Positions 3,967 through 49,414 of a stretch of DNA of 63,463 nucleotides are shown here, in pieces. The stretch is from Gemmatimonadota bacterium (GTDB taxonomy: Bacteria > Gemmatimonadota > Gemmatimonadetes > Gemmatimonadales > Gemmatimonadaceae), in assembly GCA_031127225.1 (NCBI GenBank), contig JARIEV010000005.1, positions 1 through 63,463 of the forward strand. The letters are read 5' to 3'. Positions within the stretch are counted from its first letter, which is position 1. Each line of letters begins with the position of its first letter. The position numbers were made by a program, and so were the translations under genes. The notes under the pieces were generated by a model that saw only the letters and a list, made by a program, of their open reading frames with translations, ran no database searches and was not told the DNA's origin.

Positions 3967-5235
3967 CTATCGCGCGACCGGCCCCGCCCGCAGAAGGCCG
4001 TTGAGCATGTCGCTGGCAAACAAGCCGCTGGCCGACCAGTGGATGCCCCACACATACACCGGCACCCCGCCCGGGCCCGCATAGGTGGCCCGTTCGCGTC
4101 CCATGGACGTCAGGTCGCATCGGCCGTCACTGGTTTTCTGGGCGGCGGTGCAGGTGCCCAGGTCGCCCCGCACATCGAGCACGCGCACGCCGCCGTTGTA
4201 GTACGCGACGTACGCGAAGCCCTGTGCCTCGTCCACGGAAAAATTGTGCGTGCCGGCGCCGGGCACCGTGTACACCGCCACCTCCACGGGCGCCGAAGGG
4301 ACACTGATATCCACCACATGCACGTCCCCCGTGCTCGACGACCCGACGGCCCCGGGCCCCTCCTGACCCACGAGCAGGTACTTCCGATGTCCTGTGGCGG
4401 GATCGTGCAGCCACCACACATTGTGCGCCTGCCCGCCGACGGTGCGCGCGCGCCCCAGCAACCCTGGGGCCGCCACCGATCCGCCCTGTGCGCCGATGTC
4501 CCAGATCCCCACGCCGTCGCCCCATTCGGCGGTGAACAGCAGCCCGTCGCGCACGAACACGTCGTGCATGAGCGGCGCACCCAAGGCCTGCGACCAGACG
4601 GTCCGCGGGGAGGCGGGGACGGTCAGGTCGAGGACCACCAAGCGGGCAGGGACGCCATTGCCGGGATCGATGGAGCAGAACGCGTACAGCACGCCATTCA
4701 CCCGCGCCAGCTCCGCGGTGTGCACGCCGTACTGCAGCGCGCCCCCGGTGGTGCGCAGCAGCAGTTGCGGTGCCCGCGGGTTCGTCATGGCGTACAGCGC
4801 GATGCCGCCGTTGGGATTCGATTCGATCGCCACCAGCATCAGGGTGCCGTCGTCGGACACCTGGACATCGCCCAGCGTCGTGGCGGTGGCGACGATCACG
4901 CTGTCCACTAAGCGCGGCTGATTGGCGCTGACGTCCCAGATTTTGACGGCGTTGCCGCGCACGCCGCCGCGATTCCCCCACGTCGTGGTGTACGCCGTGC
5001 TGCCGCGGACCCACACCTCCGCCGTGTAGCGCTCGGGCACCGCCCCCTGTCCTACATGGGTCAGGACGCGCACGGGCGGCACAGGCGGGAGCACCGGCGT
5101 CGTGTCCACCGGAACACGCGGCGCCTGCGTGGGCGCGTCACTGGGGCCACCGCAGGCCGTCAGCAGCGCCGTCAGCAGCGCCACGGCGAGCAGGGCGCGG
5201 GAGCGGCCCCGGAGGGCGCGGGGGAACGACGTCAT
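3967..5235 (-). CDS. LVIVD-repeat beta-propeller lipoprotein
   Basis: 422 residues starting at ATG 5235, which gives a classic lipoprotein signal (A-L-L-T-A-L-L-T-A-C-G-G) with the lipobox cysteine near residue 24; the longer open frame upstream lies inside the next gene. The mature protein consists of repeated blades ending in motifs such as I-W-D-V-S, V-V-D-I-S-V-P, I-W-D-I-G and V-L-D-V-R-G, the LVIVD type, which fold as a beta-propeller in other exported proteins. No catalytic motif is visible. Its ATG overlaps the stop of the upstream outer-membrane-like gene, so both are probably made together and may meet at the cell surface. Function unknown. Confidence 0.72.
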   Translation of the reverse strand: MTSFPRALRGRSRALLAVALLTALLTACGGPSDAPTQAPRVPVDTTPVLPPVPPVRVLTHVGQGAVPERYTAEVWVRGSTAYTTTWGNRGGVRGNAVKIWDVSANQPRLVDSVIVATATTLGDVQVSDDGTLMLVAIESNPNGGIALYAMTNPRAPQLLLRTTGGALQYGVHTAELARVNGVLYAFCSIDPGNGVPARLVVLDLTVPASPRTVWSQALGAPLMHDVFVRDGLLFTAEWGDGVGIWDIGAQGGSVAAPGLLGRARTVGGQAHNVWWLHDPATGHRKYLLVGQEGPGAVGSSSTGDVHVVDISVPSAPVEVAVYTVPGAGTHNFSVDEAQGFAYVAYYNGGVRVLDVRGDLGTCTAAQKTSDGRCDLTSMGRERATYAGPGGVPVYVWGIHWSASGLFASDMLNGLLRAGPVAR

Positions 5236-6545
5236 GGGGGAGTCGGCACGGGAGACCCAACGCGGGAGACGACGGGCACAACATAGCGGCCCATCCGCCG
5301 CCGCATGGCGCCGGCGTGGATCCGCGCACCCACGCTCAGTGACCACTGGGTGGCCGATCCGTAGAACTCGGCCGGTACGAACACCGCCGGGGTGCGCCGC
5401 GCGACCGCCGTGGCACGGGCCACTTCCACGAACGGCATCAGGCGCGCCCGCCCCAGCCGTGGGACGCCACGCAGCCGTTGCGGCGGCGCGGCCAGCTGGA
5501 GCGTACCGATCGACCACCGCGTAATCCCGACGATCTGAAAGTCCACGTGGCCCTTGGCGGTGCGAAACAGATCCAGCAGGCGTTCGCCTTCCGGCCGCTC
5601 GGTGCGTTCCGCGCGCGCCGACAGCGCCCAGCCGCGGCGCACCGCCGTGGCCTCGGCGAGCACGCTCTCGAACCGGAACACGCGCTGTGTGCCCAGCGAC
5701 TCGTCGGTGCGCGCCACTTCGAGCAGGGCAGAGCGGAGTCCGTCGCCGCCGTGGTGGGTGTCATGCGCCGCGGAGGGCGTGGCCGCGGATCCATCGCGGT
5801 CCAGCCGGAGCGACGCGCTCTGCTGCCGGTGATCAAAGGCGCCCCCCTGCGTGAGCCCGGGGCTGCGCACGAAGGCCGTGCTCGCCTGCCATTCCACCGC
5901 GCGGTGCGGCGTCACGGTCAGGCGCGTACTGCGCGAATCGCCCACGCGTGACCACTGCGGGGCGGCGAACGGCCCGGTTGGCTCGTCGCCGTTGAACCAC
6001 CCCTGCTCGAGCACGATGCCGCGGTCGCCGCGCCCGTACGCGAGAGCGCCCAGAACCTGCACGCGCTCGAGGATCTGCGCGTGATGATGGTTGACCGGAT
6101 ACTTGATGAACGGGCGCATCATCGGGTCGTCGGTGCCGAACGGGACGAAGCCCTTACCCGCGCCGAACACGAGCCGGGCGCCCCCGCGCGACGGGCCTGC
6201 CACCGTGACCATGGCCTCGTGCACGAGCGTGTGCGGATGCCGCCGGTCGATGTATCCCTCGCCGTACATCCCCGCGTTGAGCTCGCCGCGACGCAGCGTG
6301 TACCCCTCGAGGTTCAACGTGCCGGTGAAGCGCACCCGTCCCCGCGCAGCGTCCGCCAGCAGATTGGGCTGCGTGAGGTAGCCCTCGGTGAGCGGCCGCC
6401 CCAGAAGGGCTGGGTCGGCCCGCGTGAGCACGCCGGCGGCCATGATGCCGACGGAATTCCGTCCCGTGGAACGGTCGTCACTGCTGGACCGGATCGCGGG
6501 CTGGGCGTCGGATACCGCGGGGCCGAGGAGGGCTCCCGCGAGCAT
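5232..6545 (-). CDS. Predicted outer-membrane beta-barrel protein of unknown function
   Basis: About 437 residues from ATG 6545, beginning with a hydrophobic stretch ending in V-S-D-A-Q-P that resembles a short signal peptide. A longer frame reaches ATG 6650, but that would leave only 23 bp to the divergent gene and would place a good -10 hexamer (TATGAT, 6603-6608) inside the coding region. The body alternates polar and hydrophobic residues with many aromatics, and contains G-E-G-Y-I-D-R-R-H-P-H-T followed by H-E-A, a conserved-looking motif with several histidines. I read it as a porin-like or beta-barrel protein; no named family is certain. It is translationally coupled (ATGA) to the LVIVD lipoprotein. 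Confidence 0.6.
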   Translation of the reverse strand: MLAGALLGPAVSDAQPAIRSSSDDRSTGRNSVGIMAAGVLTRADPALLGRPLTEGYLTQPNLLADAARGRVRFTGTLNLEGYTLRRGELNAGMYGEGYIDRRHPHTLVHEAMVTVAGPSRGGARLVFGAGKGFVPFGTDDPMMRPFIKYPVNHHHAQILERVQVLGALAYGRGDRGIVLEQGWFNGDEPTGPFAAPQWSRVGDSRSTRLTVTPHRAVEWQASTAFVRSPGLTQGGAFDHRQQSASLRLDRDGSAATPSAAHDTHHGGDGLRSALLEVARTDESLGTQRVFRFESVLAEATAVRRGWALSARAERTERPEGERLLDLFRTAKGHVDFQIVGITRWSIGTLQLAAPPQRLRGVPRLGRARLMPFVEVARATAVARRTPAVFVPAEFYGSATQWSLSVGARIHAGAMRRRMGRYVVPVVSRVGSPVPTPP

Positions 6546-6602
6546 GAGTGTGAGAGTGTTACCGGCGAACGGGCCACCCTGTATTCCGCAGCGCCGCCTG
6601 AA

Positions 6603-6608
6603 ATCATA
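6603..6608 (-). promoter_or_regulatory. Predicted -10 element for the outer-membrane/LVIVD gene pair
   Basis: TATGAT on the minus strand (5 of 6 to TATAAT), about 58 nt before the chosen ATG at 6545. No convincing -35 was found at 16-18 bp. Its position argues against the longer ORF start. Confidence 0.35.
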
Positions 6609-6673
6609 CTTTTGGGCGAGCTTGATGAATTCCTCCTCACGCACGGTCACGCGACTCCCGTTTCAATCCGTCT

Positions 6674-8011
6674 ATGAACCGAAATGTCACTGCCGGTCTT
6701 CTGTTGGCTGGCCTGCTTCCGATGCCGCTCGGCGGCCTCGCGGCGCAAACCCTCGAAGTCACGGCCTCCCCGGCCACGGCCACGATTTTCCGGGTGAAGG
6801 CGCAGGATAACTCGCTGATTCCGCTCAGCGCCGGCGCCGGCGCCGCGAAATTCAAGCTCGAGAAAAATGACCCGAATACCATCGTCGTGCGTCAGGAGGG
6901 ATTCCGTGACGTGCGACGGTCGTTTCCGAAAGATGCCGAGTACAAGGACAAGAAGTTCACGATCTTCCTGTCGAAGCGCATCGTGGAAGTGGCGGCCCTG
7001 CCGTACGATGCCACGATTTTTGTGAATGGGGAGTCGCGCGGTCAGCGCCTAGTGGAAGTCGAGGTCGACGAAGGGGGCTCGGCCACCGTGGAACTGCGGA
7101 AAACGGGCTTTGCCGCGATCAAGCGCGTGTATCGGTGGGAGAAGGGCAGCACCGAGTATCCGCCGGCACGCGACCGTTTCGAACTGGTGGACCGTCGCGT
7201 GTCCGTCATGGCTGCGCCGACGGGCGCTGAGATCTTCGTGGGCGAATCGAAGATGGGGGACGGTGATGCGGATGTCGTCGTCGCGCGCGGCGGATGCACC
7301 ACCATCCGTGTGCAGAAGGCGGGATGGAGTCCGACCGAGCGCCAGTACTGCAACAAAGAAGGCCTGCCCGATCCGCCGGCCAGTGACCGTGTGGCGCTTT
7401 CGGGGCGTATCGTCACGGTGAACGGCCCGGCCGGCGCGCGCATTTTCGTGAATCAGAAGCAGGCCGGCACCGGGTCGTTCCCCGTGAAAGTTCCCGATGG
7501 CGGCTGCGTCAAGGTGCACGTCGAGCAGCCCGGCTTCGTCAGCTGGGATCAGGAATTCTGTGCGCAGGATAACGCGCCGGTGCCGCCCCTCGAACAGGCC
7601 GTGGAGTTGGTCCCCGACGAGTCCTATGCGGCGTCGGTGGCCAGCGATCAGGCGAACGTGAACATCACGGTGGAAGTGAGCCCCAAGCTGGAGGAGCTCC
7701 AGGCGTGGAAGCTCCTCTCGAGTATCGTGCTGGGCAGCTTCGACATCCTCGAGAATTCGGACAGCCAGACCGGCTACCTGCGCACGGCGTGGCAGACCAA
7801 GTCCTGGGCCGCCACGGGTACCGTGATCCGCACGCGGATCATCGTCAAACGGCTCAGCGATTCACCGCTGCGTTACGTGGTGAAAATTGTGTCCGAGCAC
7901 AACAAAGACGCGCGGGTGTCGTCATCGGAGGACGAGAACTTCTATTCGTGGGATCGTCTGTTGAACACGTACAAGGATGTCATCAGCGAGATGCAGGCGC
8001 GCTTGAAGTAA
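6674..8011 (+). CDS. Exported PEGA-repeat protein
   Basis: 445 residues with a Sec signal peptide (A-G-L-L-L-A-G-L-L, cleavage near L-A-A-Q). About four successive PEGA-like modules follow, each with an A-x-I-F-V-N-G/N-Q-type core (for example T-I-F-V-N-G-E-S-R-G, E-I-F-V-G-E-S-K, R-I-F-V-N-Q-K-Q) and a G-F/G-W ending. PEGA domains are small beta-sandwiches found in surface-layer and envelope proteins. The last 130 residues are unlike PEGA and unrecognised. The gene is monocistronic, divergent from the outer-membrane gene and ended by a strong hairpin. Likely periplasmic or surface located; role unknown. Confidence 0.75.
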   Translation: MNRNVTAGLLLAGLLPMPLGGLAAQTLEVTASPATATIFRVKAQDNSLIPLSAGAGAAKFKLEKNDPNTIVVRQEGFRDVRRSFPKDAEYKDKKFTIFLSKRIVEVAALPYDATIFVNGESRGQRLVEVEVDEGGSATVELRKTGFAAIKRVYRWEKGSTEYPPARDRFELVDRRVSVMAAPTGAEIFVGESKMGDGDADVVVARGGCTTIRVQKAGWSPTERQYCNKEGLPDPPASDRVALSGRIVTVNGPAGARIFVNQKQAGTGSFPVKVPDGGCVKVHVEQPGFVSWDQEFCAQDNAPVPPLEQAVELVPDESYAASVASDQANVNITVEVSPKLEELQAWKLLSSIVLGSFDILENSDSQTGYLRTAWQTKSWAATGTVIRTRIIVKRLSDSPLRYVVKIVSEHNKDARVSSSEDENFYSWDRLLNTYKDVISEMQARLK

Positions 8012-8115: not shown

Positions 8116-9645
8116 TTACTTGAGCGGCTTGTACCGGTAGCTCATGATGCCAGCGCCCGTCGCCTTGATGGTGACCGACTTCGTCTCCCCCTTCTTGATC
8201 GGGCCCACCGCTTCGGTGGCCGTGGCCACCACCGCGCCGGCGAGGTCGAGGAACTCGGCCGTCACGCTGTACTGGCCGTCCTTGGCCGCGACCTGCTCAA
8301 GGCTGAGCACGAGCGACGCGTTGTCCTTGCGGCGATCGAAGCTCGTCACGTCCACCTTGACCGGCAGCGCTTCGGCAATTGTCTGGTACTTGACCAGCGA
8401 GTCCGTCCACGCCTTGGTCTCCACCGCCTTCTTGGCGGTCTGTGCCGCCTTGGCGATCCCCTGCGACGCGTACGCGAACAGCATCCAGGCTTCGGAGTTG
8501 TTCGGGTCGATGTCGACCAGCTTCCGCACCGGGGCGAACATCTGCATGAACTGGTCCTTGCCGTAGTACGCCGCCGCCACGTTGCGCTGCGCATCGCGGT
8601 TGTACGCGTTCCGCGTCGTGGCCGCTTCGAACAGCTTGAGCGCGTCGTCCGACTTGTTGGCTCGCGTCGCGATCACGCCGGCCGTGGTCAGCGCGATGTC
8701 CGAGGCCGACGTGGACGTGAGCAGCGCGGCGTAGACCGTGGGGATCTGCGCGGTGTCCTTCGCCGCCGTGAGCGCATCCGCCCACGAGAGCAGCAGGTTC
8801 GGCGCGTCCGGACTGTCCGGCGTGGCCGTCAGCAGGGTCTTGAATCCCTCGGCCGCCTCGCGCGCCGTGGCCTGCTGTTCGGCGCCCGTCTTCGCCTGCG
8901 CGTCCTCCAGCTGGCTCATCGCCGCGTAGTACATGCTGCTGTTCTTCAGGTCGCGGTACGTGGTGTCGTCGGCCGCGTACTTGATGACATGCTTCCAGTG
9001 CATGATGGCGTTGGCCCGGTTGTTCCGCGCGTTCGCGACGTTCGCCAGCACGTAGTGCGGGTACGGGTTGGTCGCGGCCATCATCATCGAGCGCTTCGCG
9101 AAGTACTCGGCCGAATCCAGATTGCCGCCGTTCGACGCATCGAGCGCGGCCTTAGTGGCGGCCAGCCACACTTCGTTCTGACGCATCGCGTTCACGTCAG
9201 ATTCGCACGCCGGGATCGCCGCGATCATCGCCTTGTACGAGCTGTCCATGTGGACGATGATGTCGTACGGCTGCGTGGGGTTCGTGATGAAGCCGAGTGC
9301 ACTGCGCGCCGGCGCGTCACCGATGCCGGGCTCGACACCCCACAGCGTGAGCGCCTGCACCAGCGAAAGATGGTAGCCGGCCGGGTTCTTGGCGTACCGC
9401 TCGGGCTTGGTGTCGAGCTCCTTCACGATGTCGCGCAACACCTTCTGGCGCGCCTCAGGTGTGGGCGCGCTCCGCGCGCTCTGGAACTTCAGCGACATCA
9501 GCGCGAGTTCCTTGGGATTATTCTGGTCGATCGTGCACGACGAGGCCACGCCGCCACCGGGCTGAGCCAGTGCCACGGACGGCACGAGAACTGCTCCGGA
9601 CAGCGACACGACGGTCGCCACACCGGCCATGAACGTCAAACGCAT
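8116..9645 (-). CDS. Exported tetratricopeptide-repeat protein
   Basis: 509 residues. The start is supported by an AGGAG ribosome-binding site about 7 nt before the ATG and by a Sec signal peptide (M-A-G-V-A-T-V-V-S-L, cleavage after A-L-A-Q). The mature part is largely helical with TPR-like pairs (for example A-K-R-S-M-M-M-A-A-T-N-P-Y-P-H-Y and P-N-N-S-E-A-W-M-L-F-A-Y-A-S-Q-G), followed by a C-terminal beta-type segment of about 90 residues. No catalytic residues are evident. TPR proteins of this type scaffold envelope complexes; no partner is shown by the neighbours. Confidence 0.72.
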   Translation of the reverse strand: MRLTFMAGVATVVSLSGAVLVPSVALAQPGGGVASSCTIDQNNPKELALMSLKFQSARSAPTPEARQKVLRDIVKELDTKPERYAKNPAGYHLSLVQALTLWGVEPGIGDAPARSALGFITNPTQPYDIIVHMDSSYKAMIAAIPACESDVNAMRQNEVWLAATKAALDASNGGNLDSAEYFAKRSMMMAATNPYPHYVLANVANARNNRANAIMHWKHVIKYAADDTTYRDLKNSSMYYAAMSQLEDAQAKTGAEQQATAREAAEGFKTLLTATPDSPDAPNLLLSWADALTAAKDTAQIPTVYAALLTSTSASDIALTTAGVIATRANKSDDALKLFEAATTRNAYNRDAQRNVAAAYYGKDQFMQMFAPVRKLVDIDPNNSEAWMLFAYASQGIAKAAQTAKKAVETKAWTDSLVKYQTIAEALPVKVDVTSFDRRKDNASLVLSLEQVAAKDGQYSVTAEFLDLAGAVVATATEAVGPIKKGETKSVTIKATGAGIMSYRYKPLK

Positions 9646-13288: not shown

Positions 13289-14230
13289 ATGCCTGTGCCA
13301 CTGCCACCGCTCACTGACCGCGCCGCCCGCATTTTGCTGGAAGGGCTCGTGGACTACGCCGGCCTCTTTCCGCCGGCGTCGCTGGCCATGACCAATGCCG
13401 TGCGCAACTACGCGCATTACCGTGCCGCCGGGACGGGCTGGATGCTGGGGCGTTTCATTTGCCCGGCGTCGTCGCTCGAGCAGTTCTCGCAGGCGGCCGA
13501 TCCGTTGTTGCCGCGCGATGCCGGCGCCATTCCGTGGCGCCTGTCGGTCACCGGCAGTGGTGACATGGCCGCCGATCTCGCGCAGATCGCGGCGTTCAAC
13601 GAGCGGCATCGCGTCTGCTTCGAAGAATGTGGGGCCACGGTCGACAGCTACGAATGCAAAGTCGCGAGCGCACACGAGGTGGAGCACGTTGCGGCGGCGA
13701 TCCCGGCGACGCTCGTGACGTACCTCGAGGTGCCGCTCGATGGCGATATCGAAGGGCTCGTAGCGGCGATCGCCCGCGTGGGGCGTCGCGCGAAAATCCG
13801 CACCGGTGGCACCACTGCCAATCTGATCCCGGACCCCGCGCGCATCGTGCGCTTTTTCGCCGCCTGCACCGCGTACGACGTGATCGCCAAGGCCACGGCC
13901 GGGCTGCATCATCCGCTGCGCGGCACCTACCGCCTCACCTACGAGCCGGACGCCGCCACCGGACGCATGTACGGCTTTCTCAACGTCGCCCTCGCCGCCG
14001 CCCTGCTCGGCAACGGCGGCCGCGACACCGACGCCCTGCGTCTGCTCGAGGAAGCCGATGCCGGTGCCATCACGTTCGACGAGATGCAGATCACCTGGCA
14101 CGGGCCTGACCATGCGGTCACGTTCCCGCGCGCGGCGCTGCAGCGCATGCGTGAGCGCGGCATGGTCAGCTTCGGGTCCTGCTCCTTCACCGAGCCGGTG
14201 GACGAAGCGCGCGCCCTCGGCTGGATCTGA
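13289..14230 (+). CDS. Conserved protein of unknown function, possibly an enzyme
   Basis: About 313 residues; I do not recognise a named family. Highly patterned motifs suggest a catalytic fold: D-Y-A-G-L-F-P-P-A near the N-terminus, L-E-V-P-L-D and K-I-R-T-G-G in the middle, K-A-T-A-G-L-H-H-P-L-R, and F-G-S-C-S-F-T-E-P-V near the end. The alternation of these with helices would fit a TIM-barrel-like enzyme, but that is inference. There is no signal peptide, so it should be cytoplasmic. A GTG at 13256 in frame would add 11 residues. It lies 54 bp after nadC and 63 bp before fumarylacetoacetase, whose own promoter-like site may separate them. Confidence 0.65.
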   Translation: MPVPLPPLTDRAARILLEGLVDYAGLFPPASLAMTNAVRNYAHYRAAGTGWMLGRFICPASSLEQFSQAADPLLPRDAGAIPWRLSVTGSGDMAADLAQIAAFNERHRVCFEECGATVDSYECKVASAHEVEHVAAAIPATLVTYLEVPLDGDIEGLVAAIARVGRRAKIRTGGTTANLIPDPARIVRFFAACTAYDVIAKATAGLHHPLRGTYRLTYEPDAATGRMYGFLNVALAAALLGNGGRDTDALRLLEEADAGAITFDEMQITWHGPDHAVTFPRAALQRMRERGMVSFGSCSFTEPVDEARALGWI

Positions 14231-44464: not shown

Positions 44465-45091
44465 TCAGCCGGCCCGGCGAACGGGCTCGGCGAGGTCGGG
44501 CAAATCGGCGCCGCGGCCGCACGTGACACAAAAACGCCAGTTCACATCCAGCTCGGTGCTGCACGCCGGGCATTGCCGCTTCGTCATGTCGAGGCCGCAA
44601 TGCGGGCAGAAGATCATGTGCCGGTTGTCGGGCAGGCGGTTGCCGCAAAACCGGCAACTGCAGTGCGGCGTGGTCCCGCCCGGCCCAAGGTCAGGACGCG
44701 CCGCACCGCTGCGCGCCACCGACGACAGGCGTTCGCTGCCGATTTCGGTGGCCGGTGCCGCCAGCGTCAGCGACGTGGTGCCCCACGCACGGACGAGCGA
44801 CAGCGAGGGGGACGGTGAGGCGAGGGCCTGCACGCAGGCCACCTGCAAATCGACCTCGGTGTGCAGATACCCCCGTTCGCCGGCGATCAGGCGGAGCACC
44901 GCCCGTTCGAACACATCGGCGCCGCCGTCGGCCATTTCACGCCGTGCCTCACGAAACGGCAACAGCCGCTCCTCGAGATCAACGAGCGTGAAACCCTGCG
45001 AGAGCAGGTGCGGGTACTGGGTCCGCACCACCCGGGCGAGCCGGAAGGCGAGGCGGTCGAGATCGTCCAGCGATCGGGACGCGACGCTCAC
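44465..45091 (-). CDS. Double zinc-ribbon protein
   Basis: 208 residues. The N-terminal 100 residues are helical with no known motif. The C-terminal 70 residues hold four CxxC knuckles: C-R-F-C-G, C-P-H-C-G, C-P-A-C-S and C-V-T-C-G, forming two consecutive zinc ribbons of the DZR type. These bind nucleic acid or protein in other systems. The ATG overlaps the stop of the upstream 60-residue membrane gene (ATGA), so the two are co-translated. Function otherwise unknown. Confidence 0.72.
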   Translation of the reverse strand: MSVASRSLDDLDRLAFRLARVVRTQYPHLLSQGFTLVDLEERLLPFREARREMADGGADVFERAVLRLIAGERGYLHTEVDLQVACVQALASPSPSLSLVRAWGTTSLTLAAPATEIGSERLSSVARSGAARPDLGPGGTTPHCSCRFCGNRLPDNRHMIFCPHCGLDMTKRQCPACSTELDVNWRFCVTCGRGADLPDLAEPVRRAG

Positions 45092-45270
45092 TTGCCGTCC
45101 GCCGTCTTGAACCGCCCGTCCACGTCATTGCCCATACGGTCACGCGTCTCCCCGCCGATACGATCGAGCGTGCGCTCGACAATGTGCTGTTCGTGCACAT
45201 GGGCGTCCTTCCATCCGTAGCCGTACCCGATGGCGATCCCGACCGAGAGTATGAGCAAAACTTTAAACAT
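45088..45270 (-). CDS. Small single-helix membrane protein
   Basis: 60 residues starting at ATG 45270. The first 22 residues form one hydrophobic helix rich in glycine and tyrosine (L-L-I-L-S-V-G-I-A-I-G-Y-G-Y-G), followed by a charged tail with several histidines (D-A-H-V-H-E-Q-H) and an amphipathic stretch. It lies 41 bp after the RNase HI-like gene and overlaps the zinc-ribbon gene, so it belongs to the same block. Too short for a family assignment. Confidence 0.6.
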   Translation of the reverse strand: MFKVLLILSVGIAIGYGYGWKDAHVHEQHIVERTLDRIGGETRDRMGNDVDGRFKTADGK

Positions 45271-45311: not shown

Positions 45312-45950
45312 TTACGGTATCCGACGCGCCATCGCGGCGCGGGGTAACGCCGGCGAGGCGGTGAAGCGGTCCGTATCGGGGAACGCGGCCAGTGGCGCGC
45401 GCTTGGTATTGGCCCGCAGCGGCTGGGCGTTCCACCACTCCTCGAACGACGACAGTACGAGTCCGTCCGAGCGGTCCTGCACGGCGGCGGCACGGGTCGC
45501 GAGGTGGTTGGCGTACTCGTTCTGCGGATGACCGGCATGTCCCTTCACCCACGCCCACTGGGTTTCGTGGGCGGCCACGGCGGCCACCGCGGCCTGCCAC
45601 AGCTCCACGTTTTCCACCGGTCCCTGCGCCCGCTTCCACCCGCGCGCCATCCATCCGCGCACCCACGAGGTCATGCCGTCCACGATGTACCGCGAGTCGG
45701 TGGTGAACAGCACCGACAGGGTATTCCCCTTCCGGGACATCGCGTCGAACGTGTCGATCACCGAGCGGAGCGCCATCCGGTTGTTCGTGGTGTCCGGCTC
45801 GGACGCCCACAGGTCGAAGCGCTGGATCGAGCCATCGGTTTTCCGGAATTCGATCAGGGCGCCCAACCCTCCCGGCGTGTCACCGCGCTGGCCGTTGCCC
45901 AAACAGGACTCGTCGGCGTACACCGCCACCAGCGGATGCGTCGCGCTCAC
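45312..45950 (-). CDS. rnhA: Ribonuclease HI homologue with altered active site
   Basis: 212 residues, longer than E. coli RNase HI (155) because of a C-terminal tail of about 50 residues. The fold is unmistakable: Y-A-D-E-S-C-L-G-N, T-T-N-N-R-M, T-T-D-S-R-Y, a handle region W-x-x-R-G-W-K-R-A and W-V-K-G-H-A-G-H-P. Of the four catalytic carboxylates, two are kept (D13 and D85), but the position of E. coli E48 is Ala (A60, codon 45771-45773) and that of D134 is Asn (N148, codon 45507-45509). The catalytic-loop His (H138) remains. Activity is therefore doubtful. Overlaps the upstream 71-residue gene by ATGA. Confidence 0.9.
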   Translation of the reverse strand: MSATHPLVAVYADESCLGNGQRGDTPGGLGALIEFRKTDGSIQRFDLWASEPDTTNNRMALRSVIDTFDAMSRKGNTLSVLFTTDSRYIVDGMTSWVRGWMARGWKRAQGPVENVELWQAAVAAVAAHETQWAWVKGHAGHPQNEYANHLATRAAAVQDRSDGLVLSSFEEWWNAQPLRANTKRAPLAAFPDTDRFTASPALPRAAMARRIP

Positions 45951-46162
45951 CGCACGATCTCCAAGCCGTCCAGTTCGTCTAAATAGATCTCGAGCGCACT
46001 CCCCGTGCTCGGGTGCCGCGCCACGATCTGCTCGCGTCCGGCCACCAAGCGCAGGCGCTCAGGGATCACGAGGAATTCGCTGCCGCGGCGGCGCAGCTGC
46101 AGCCGCGTCCCATCGGTGATGGCGCGTTCGAGACGGTCGTACTGCGAGACGGAGAGCTGCAT
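45947..46162 (-). CDS. Small beta-rich protein, partner of the RNase HI homologue
   Basis: 71 residues. A short helix (Y-D-R-L-E-R-A-I) is followed by strands with basic residues (L-Q-L-R-R-R-G-S-E-F-L-V-I-P, L-R-L-V-A-G-R-E-Q-I-V-A-R) and an acidic C-terminal turn (Y-L-D-E-L-D-G-L-E). The size and charge pattern would suit a small Sm- or SH3-like barrel, but this is inference. The stop overlaps the RNase HI start, so the two are probably made in equal amounts. No family recognised. Confidence 0.6.
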   Translation of the reverse strand: MQLSVSQYDRLERAITDGTRLQLRRRGSEFLVIPERLRLVAGREQIVARHPSTGSALEIYLDELDGLEIVR

Positions 46163-48386: not shown

Positions 48387-49298
48387 TTACTTCTTCTTCG
48401 CGGGCGCCTTCTTGGCGGGAGCCTTCGCGGCCTTCTTGGCGGGTGCCTTGGCCGCGGGCTTGGCAGCGGCCTTGGCGGCCGGCTTGGCCGGCGCCTTAGC
48501 GACCGGCTTCGCGGGGGTCTTGGCCGCGGGCTTCGCTGGCGCCTTCGCGGCCGGCTTGGCTGGCGCCTTGGCCACCTGCTTCGCGGGGGCCTTCGCGGCC
48601 GGCTTGGCTGCGGTCTTGGCCGGTGCCTTGGCGGCCGCCGGGGCCTTCTCGGTCTTCGCGGGCGCCGCCGCCTTTGCCGGCGCTACCGGTTCCACGCTCG
48701 CGGCCGGCTTCGCGTCGGCGGCGGGCTTGGTCTCGACCACCGCCGGCGCTTCGACCTTGGCCGCCGCCACGCGCGGCGCCTTCGGCTCGAGCGGGGCAAA
48801 GATGACCTTATCGGACGGCTTCTGGGAGTCGATGCGCATGGCCGCGCGCGCTTCCAGTGCCGCTTCGGCGGCCGCAGCCGGCGCGGTCACGGCCTTGGGA
48901 AGCTGGCCGAGTGGGACCGGCTTCGGCGGCGCCGCCTTCGGGCCGGGGACGGGCAGCGCGCCGTGCTTGGCGATGTAGGCCGCTTCGGCCTGCTGGATCA
49001 GCACGTCGGCCTCCTCCTGTCCCATCTGGCCGCGGCGCACCATGTAGTTGATCAGGTCGCGGGCGCTTTCGATGGCAAAGGGACTGAAGCCCGCCGCCGC
49101 GCCGATCACCTCGCGCATCGCACCGGCCATCTTGCTGCCCGCCTCGATGCTGATCTCGTGCGCCCGCTGCGCCATCTCGGCCGCCGTGTCGCGCGCGTCA
49201 GCAGCCCGGTGTCCAGGCCCGCGGCGCGGAGCTGGACTGGCGGGAGGGGCATCACCATCGGTGATGATATCGTCGTCAGCCTGCGGCAAATCGGCCAT
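48387..49298 (-). CDS. Histone H1/PhaF-like Ala-Lys-Pro-rich protein
   Basis: 303 residues from ATG 49298. The N-terminal 150 residues contain a helical domain (A-R-D-L-I-N-Y-M-V-R-R-G-Q-M-G followed by E-E-A-D-V-L-I-Q) reminiscent of phasin-type or nucleoid proteins. The C-terminal 100 residues are repeats of P-A-A-K-A-P-A-K, ending K-K-A-P-A-K-K-K, which bind DNA electrostatically in AlgP, HctB and PhaF. The combination matches PhaF-like proteins that link storage granules to the nucleoid, but a plain nucleoid protein is equally possible. No PHA genes lie nearby. Confidence 0.75.
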   Translation of the reverse strand: MADLPQADDDIITDGDAPPASPAPRRGPGHRAADARDTAAEMAQRAHEISIEAGSKMAGAMREVIGAAAGFSPFAIESARDLINYMVRRGQMGQEEADVLIQQAEAAYIAKHGALPVPGPKAAPPKPVPLGQLPKAVTAPAAAAEAALEARAAMRIDSQKPSDKVIFAPLEPKAPRVAAAKVEAPAVVETKPAADAKPAASVEPVAPAKAAAPAKTEKAPAAAKAPAKTAAKPAAKAPAKQVAKAPAKPAAKAPAKPAAKTPAKPVAKAPAKPAAKAAAKPAAKAPAKKAAKAPAKKAPAKKK

Positions 49299-49414
49299 GG
49301 GTCGAACGCACTCCTTCCGCCAGCAATGAAGGTAGAGGTGTCGCCCGACGCGACTCGGACCACAGGACATGCTGTCCCACCCGAGTACTGCCCGCGACTA
49401 CCAGAACGGGGGTA

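Follow-up and report, generated by a model that had tools for sequence, protein, structure and literature searches.

Does an RNase HI homologue that lacks two of the four canonical active-site carboxylates still cut RNA, or has it become a protein of another kind? The question is raised by rnhA, at 45312..45950 on the (-) strand of the window, by which we mean the whole 63,463-nucleotide stretch analyzed (contig JARIEV010000005.1 of a Gemmatimonadota bacterium). A first-pass annotation of this DNA had noted Ala and Asn where E. coli RNase HI has E48 and D134, and had offered two readings: a binder of RNA-DNA hybrids that does not cleave them, or an enzyme that recruits its metal through another residue, E14 being a candidate.

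The rnhA product and its active-site residues

The gene encodes, from a GTG start, a 212-aa protein that we class as an RNase HI of the LC9 (DEDN) type. Pfam RNase_H, its sole Pfam match, covers residues 8-155 (1.6e-28; 100.1 bits, cut-off 25.8); the RNase HII profile PF01351 is unmatched, and the NCBIfam ribonuclease HI model NF001236 matches at 3.1e-39 with 133.9 bits, under its equivalog cut-off of 160. An AlphaFold2 model (mean pLDDT 91.9; alignment of 44 sequences) has 4ibn and E. coli RNase HI as its top fold matches in the PDB, which places the protein in the RNase HI fold. This fold and the substrate-handling motifs are common to the window protein and the E. coli enzyme (DEDD), and the annotation was right to call both intact.

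Aligned pairwise, the window protein and E. coli RNase HI are 44% identical, and the alignment pairs D10 with D13, G11 with E14, E48 with A60, D70 with D85, H124 with H138 and D134 with N148; at positions 10, 48, 70 and 134 of the canonical DEDD pattern, the window protein has D, A, D and N. On the (-) strand, the codons are GAC at 45912..45914 for D13, GAG at 45909..45911 for E14, GCG at 45771..45773 for A60, GAC at 45696..45698 for D85, CAT for H138 and AAC at 45507..45509 for N148. Alignment and codons agree on the two substitutions as first annotated, and the counterparts of D10 and D70 and the catalytic-loop His are likewise kept. The presumed metal site comprises D13, E14, D85 and N148, with E14 as the presumed relocated catalytic glutamate; H138 is the His of the catalytic loop.

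The best match among solved structures is 4ibn, both by sequence (phmmer, E 2.3e-74, residues 5-209) and by fold (E 9.3e-27, TM 0.87, rmsd 2.2, 60% identity). Its PDB title is LC9-RNase H1, "type 1 RNase H with the type 2 active-site motif." We took the LC9 type to have a strand beta-1 Glu beside the first Asp, to lack Glu at 48, and to carry Asp at 70 and Asn at 134; E14, A60, D85 and N148 align to the same residues of 4ibn, and residues 7-16, the stretch that holds E14, form a strand in the AlphaFold2 model. The motifs YADES, NNRMALRS, TTDSR and NEYANHLA are identical in the two proteins, and we found no active-site differences between them. Past its RNase H domain the window protein continues in an extension (about residues 159-212; 45315..45476, (-) strand), which 4ibn has as well.

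Conservation and descent in the Gemmatimonadota

RNases HI were sampled at the level of the window's genus, family, order and class, together with 80 named-record loci, the best in the genome collection; most of these 80 carry the title Gemmatimonadetes, Gemmatimonadaceae or Gemmatimonas, and nearly all are assigned by title to the Gemmatimonadota. In the combined alignment, E14 and A60 occur together in all 185 distinct relatives of this kind, which we call the DE-A type, while Gly at position 11 always goes with Glu at 48 among the RNases HI examined here. Position 148 (E. coli 134) is Asn in 160 of the 185 and Asp in the other 25, and Asn stands there in 79 of 79 named-record sequences that start before the motif. 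Fixation among homologues, which the annotation had proposed to check, is thus complete for A60 and incomplete for N148. By E. coli numbering, T43, N44, D70, H124 and N130 do not vary across the 185 sequences, and neither does D10. In the E. coli enzyme, D134 pairs with R138 (PMC4032109); at the position of R138, every DE-A sequence but one has T, V, I or M.

Because relatives carry the same residues at both sites, a sequencing error at A60 or N148 was ruled out. The gene is kept by purifying selection, as dN/dS against seven relatives is 0.09-0.20. All six RNases HI examined from mobile elements (five plasmid, one phage) have the canonical motif; among viral contigs, DE-type relatives appeared only as weak partial matches (27%), and a DNA motif search for the type in viruses returned one chance match in an unrelated ORF.

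In a midpoint-rooted tree of 129 rows, from which columns 11, 48 and 134 were left out, the DE-A type forms one side of a single branch with support 97, a split that carries a long-branch warning. Position 134 changes between Asp and Asn 13 times on this tree, and at least seven of these changes are forced by well-supported branches. The sequence of 4ibn falls among members of the family to which the window belongs (f1), adjoining L003 from one of its genomes. Because of this placement, the source of LC9-RNase H1 was probably an uncultured member of that family, Gemmatimonadaceae, a name that for the LC9 placement is based on the record titles of near relatives.

The DE-A arrangement is the norm in most of the Gemmatimonadota families sampled, and the exceptions lie in families other than f1. 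In three genomes of family f5 (G292, G258 and G203), the sole RNase_H match is a canonical DGED RNase HI, though other genomes of their genus codes carry the DE-A type. These DGED proteins (L039, L040, L041; L217-L219) have an N-terminal CxxC...CxxH stretch, a Lys-rich linker and a very long branch, and it looks as if they replaced the DE-A type in the three genomes. In families f8 and f11, all RNase H matches were short and weak, and those that could be aligned belong to the DGED kind. Separately, locus L132 (CALQGY020000049.1) is titled Candidatus Kuenenia stuttgartiensis, a planctomycete; it has the same gene order, with 53-88% protein identity, and the record is probably a misnamed MAG.

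RNase H complement and gene neighborhood

A profile search of the assembly gave rnhA as its sole PF00075 match. The annotation had suggested looking for a second rnhA or an rnhB: no other PF00075 match was found, nor was rnhB (PF01351) in this assembly, which is 83.65% complete. Among relatives, rnhB is present in 94 of 100. A 13-kb rnhB stretch from a same-genus relative matches the window's genome as far as query position 4183, at base 13386, the last of contig C155, and the match resumes at query position 8762, at base 9 of contig C35; the relative's rnhB lies at 6192-6734 of the stretch, within the gap. Because its expected place falls between these two contigs, rnhB is probably present in the window's genome and unassembled. 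On the same two grounds, its frequency in relatives and the gap at its place, we rejected the idea that the window RNase HI replaces RNase HII.

Directly upstream of rnhA lies a 71-aa ORF (45947..46162, (-) strand) whose stop overlaps the GTG of rnhA (GTGA). It is kept in this place in all named relatives L128-L165 except L151, whose contig begins inside rnhA, and it has no Pfam or NCBIfam match; it is an uncharacterised gene, probably coupled to rnhA. On the other side, a protein of 208 aa (44465-45091, (-) strand) carries a double zinc ribbon at its C terminus; in close relatives it is usually found downstream of rnhA, and an ORF of about 60 aa (45088-45270) lies between the two. A 327-aa protein at 48387-49370 (-) matches nothing in Pfam or NCBIfam and carries a long repeat tail rich in Ala, Lys and Pro (AAKAPAKP...); a homologue lies close to rnhA in many relatives.

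Catalysis, alternatives and known systems

The window protein is the cell's RNase HI, and very probably uses the usual metal-ion mechanism to cut the RNA in RNA-DNA hybrids, at a site of D13, E14, D85 and N148 in which E14 would replace E48. The glutamate would be supplied, as in RNase H2, from strand beta-1, beside the first Asp, rather than from helix A as in E. coli, and the loss at A60 would thereby be offset. Evidence on the window protein directly comprises its fold, its residues, the coupling of E14 to A60, conservation, purifying selection and a solved homologue of 60% identity; metal binding and cleavage by the protein itself we infer from the work on LC9-RNase H1. In that study, the second glutamate is reportedly shifted from helix A to strand beta-1 beside the first Asp, as in RNase H2. 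Since the window protein equals 4ibn at every such residue, the suggestion that E14 recruits the metal was sound, and it is strengthened by the invariance of E14 with A60 and by the type 2 motif named in the title of 4ibn.

The annotation's premise that loss of E48 abolishes activity was too strong as a general statement, as E48 and D134 are both dispensable for the Mn2+-dependent activity of E. coli RNase HI (PMC4032109). The E. coli enzyme with N or H at 134 retains activity, at a reduced level (PMC4032109), and N148 therefore does not speak for a dead enzyme. That two of four carboxylates are missing was therefore correct as to the residues and overstated as to the loss: E48 appears to have moved to E14, and D134 is replaceable by N or H.

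These points bear on two other readings. If the two catalytic acids were simply lost, the protein would do no more than bind or protect RNA-DNA hybrids; Ala and Asn at the E48 and D134 positions would fit this, the E. coli E48A/D134N mutants 1wsg and 1wsi rank with the closest solved structures in both sequence and fold, and conservation by itself would suit a conserved binding role too. We nevertheless consider such a non-cleaving binder extremely improbable, because E14 never varies and always accompanies A60, the His of the catalytic loop does not vary either, no other RNase H1 was found in the genome, and the solved relative 4ibn, with the same residues, is described in the title of its paper as having a DEDN active site. 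A pseudo-enzyme was rejected on the E14/A60 coupling, the conservation and the match to 4ibn taken together.

An active enzyme might instead have shifted its preference, its RNase H2-like Glu bringing a preference for Mn2+ or some cutting at RNA-DNA junctions and so taking over part of the work of RNase H2. The relatives' own RNase HII likewise has adjacent Asp-Glu as its motif (GVDEVGRGP), and Mn2+ supports the activity of E. coli enzymes mutated at E48 and/or D134 (PMC4032109). The absence of rnhB from the assembly would suit this reading as well, but its presence in nearly all relatives and the contig gap at its expected place speak against it. Moreover, LC9-RNase H1 is said to have enzymatic properties like those of RNase H1 and not H2, and we regard a shifted preference as very improbable.

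For the reading that we prefer, a cleaving RNase HI with a relocated glutamate, the distribution of residues suggests a history: the site would have been rewired once in several Gemmatimonadota families, the glutamate passing from helix A to strand beta-1 and becoming fixed, and the rewiring would then have relaxed the fourth carboxylate, such that Asp and Asn interchanged repeatedly. The first half of this account is supported; that the metal or substrate preference of the rewired site would also lie nearer that of RNase H2 is unlikely. More generally, a catalytic residue missing from an alignment may have moved, so neighboring positions should be checked before a protein is called a pseudo-enzyme. 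The natural series of DE-A-D-D and DE-A-D-N sites, with its seven or more switches, also offers a test of the role of the fourth carboxylate in metal-dependent nucleases.

Among known systems, E. coli RNase HI has G11, E48 and D134 where the window protein has E14, A60 and N148, and it ends shortly past the domain, whereas the window protein continues into a C-terminal extension. The E. coli mutants E48A/D134N and E48A (1wsg, 1wsi, 1wse) share the substitutions at E48 and D134 but are without the additional Glu beside D10 that the window protein has in E14. RNase HII (rnhB, PF01351) resembles the window protein in the adjacent Asp-Glu at the start of its domain, but is a separate family, and the likeness of the two sites would be convergent.

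The closest system is the metagenome-derived LC9-RNase H1, which shares the domain, the D-E / A / D / H / N residues and the C-terminal extension, and comes from another species than the window protein. Its paper speaks in the title of an "atypical DEDN active site motif" (Nguyen et al., FEBS Lett 587:1418, 2013). The relocated-glutamate arrangement is thus already published, and the window protein is a further case of it. What the comparison of relatives would add is that the arrangement is fixed over several Gemmatimonadota families with a strict coupling of E14 to A60, that the fourth site has apparently switched repeatedly between Asp and Asn, and that LC9-RNase H1 probably originated in the Gemmatimonadota, which gives a metagenomic enzyme a probable taxonomic home.
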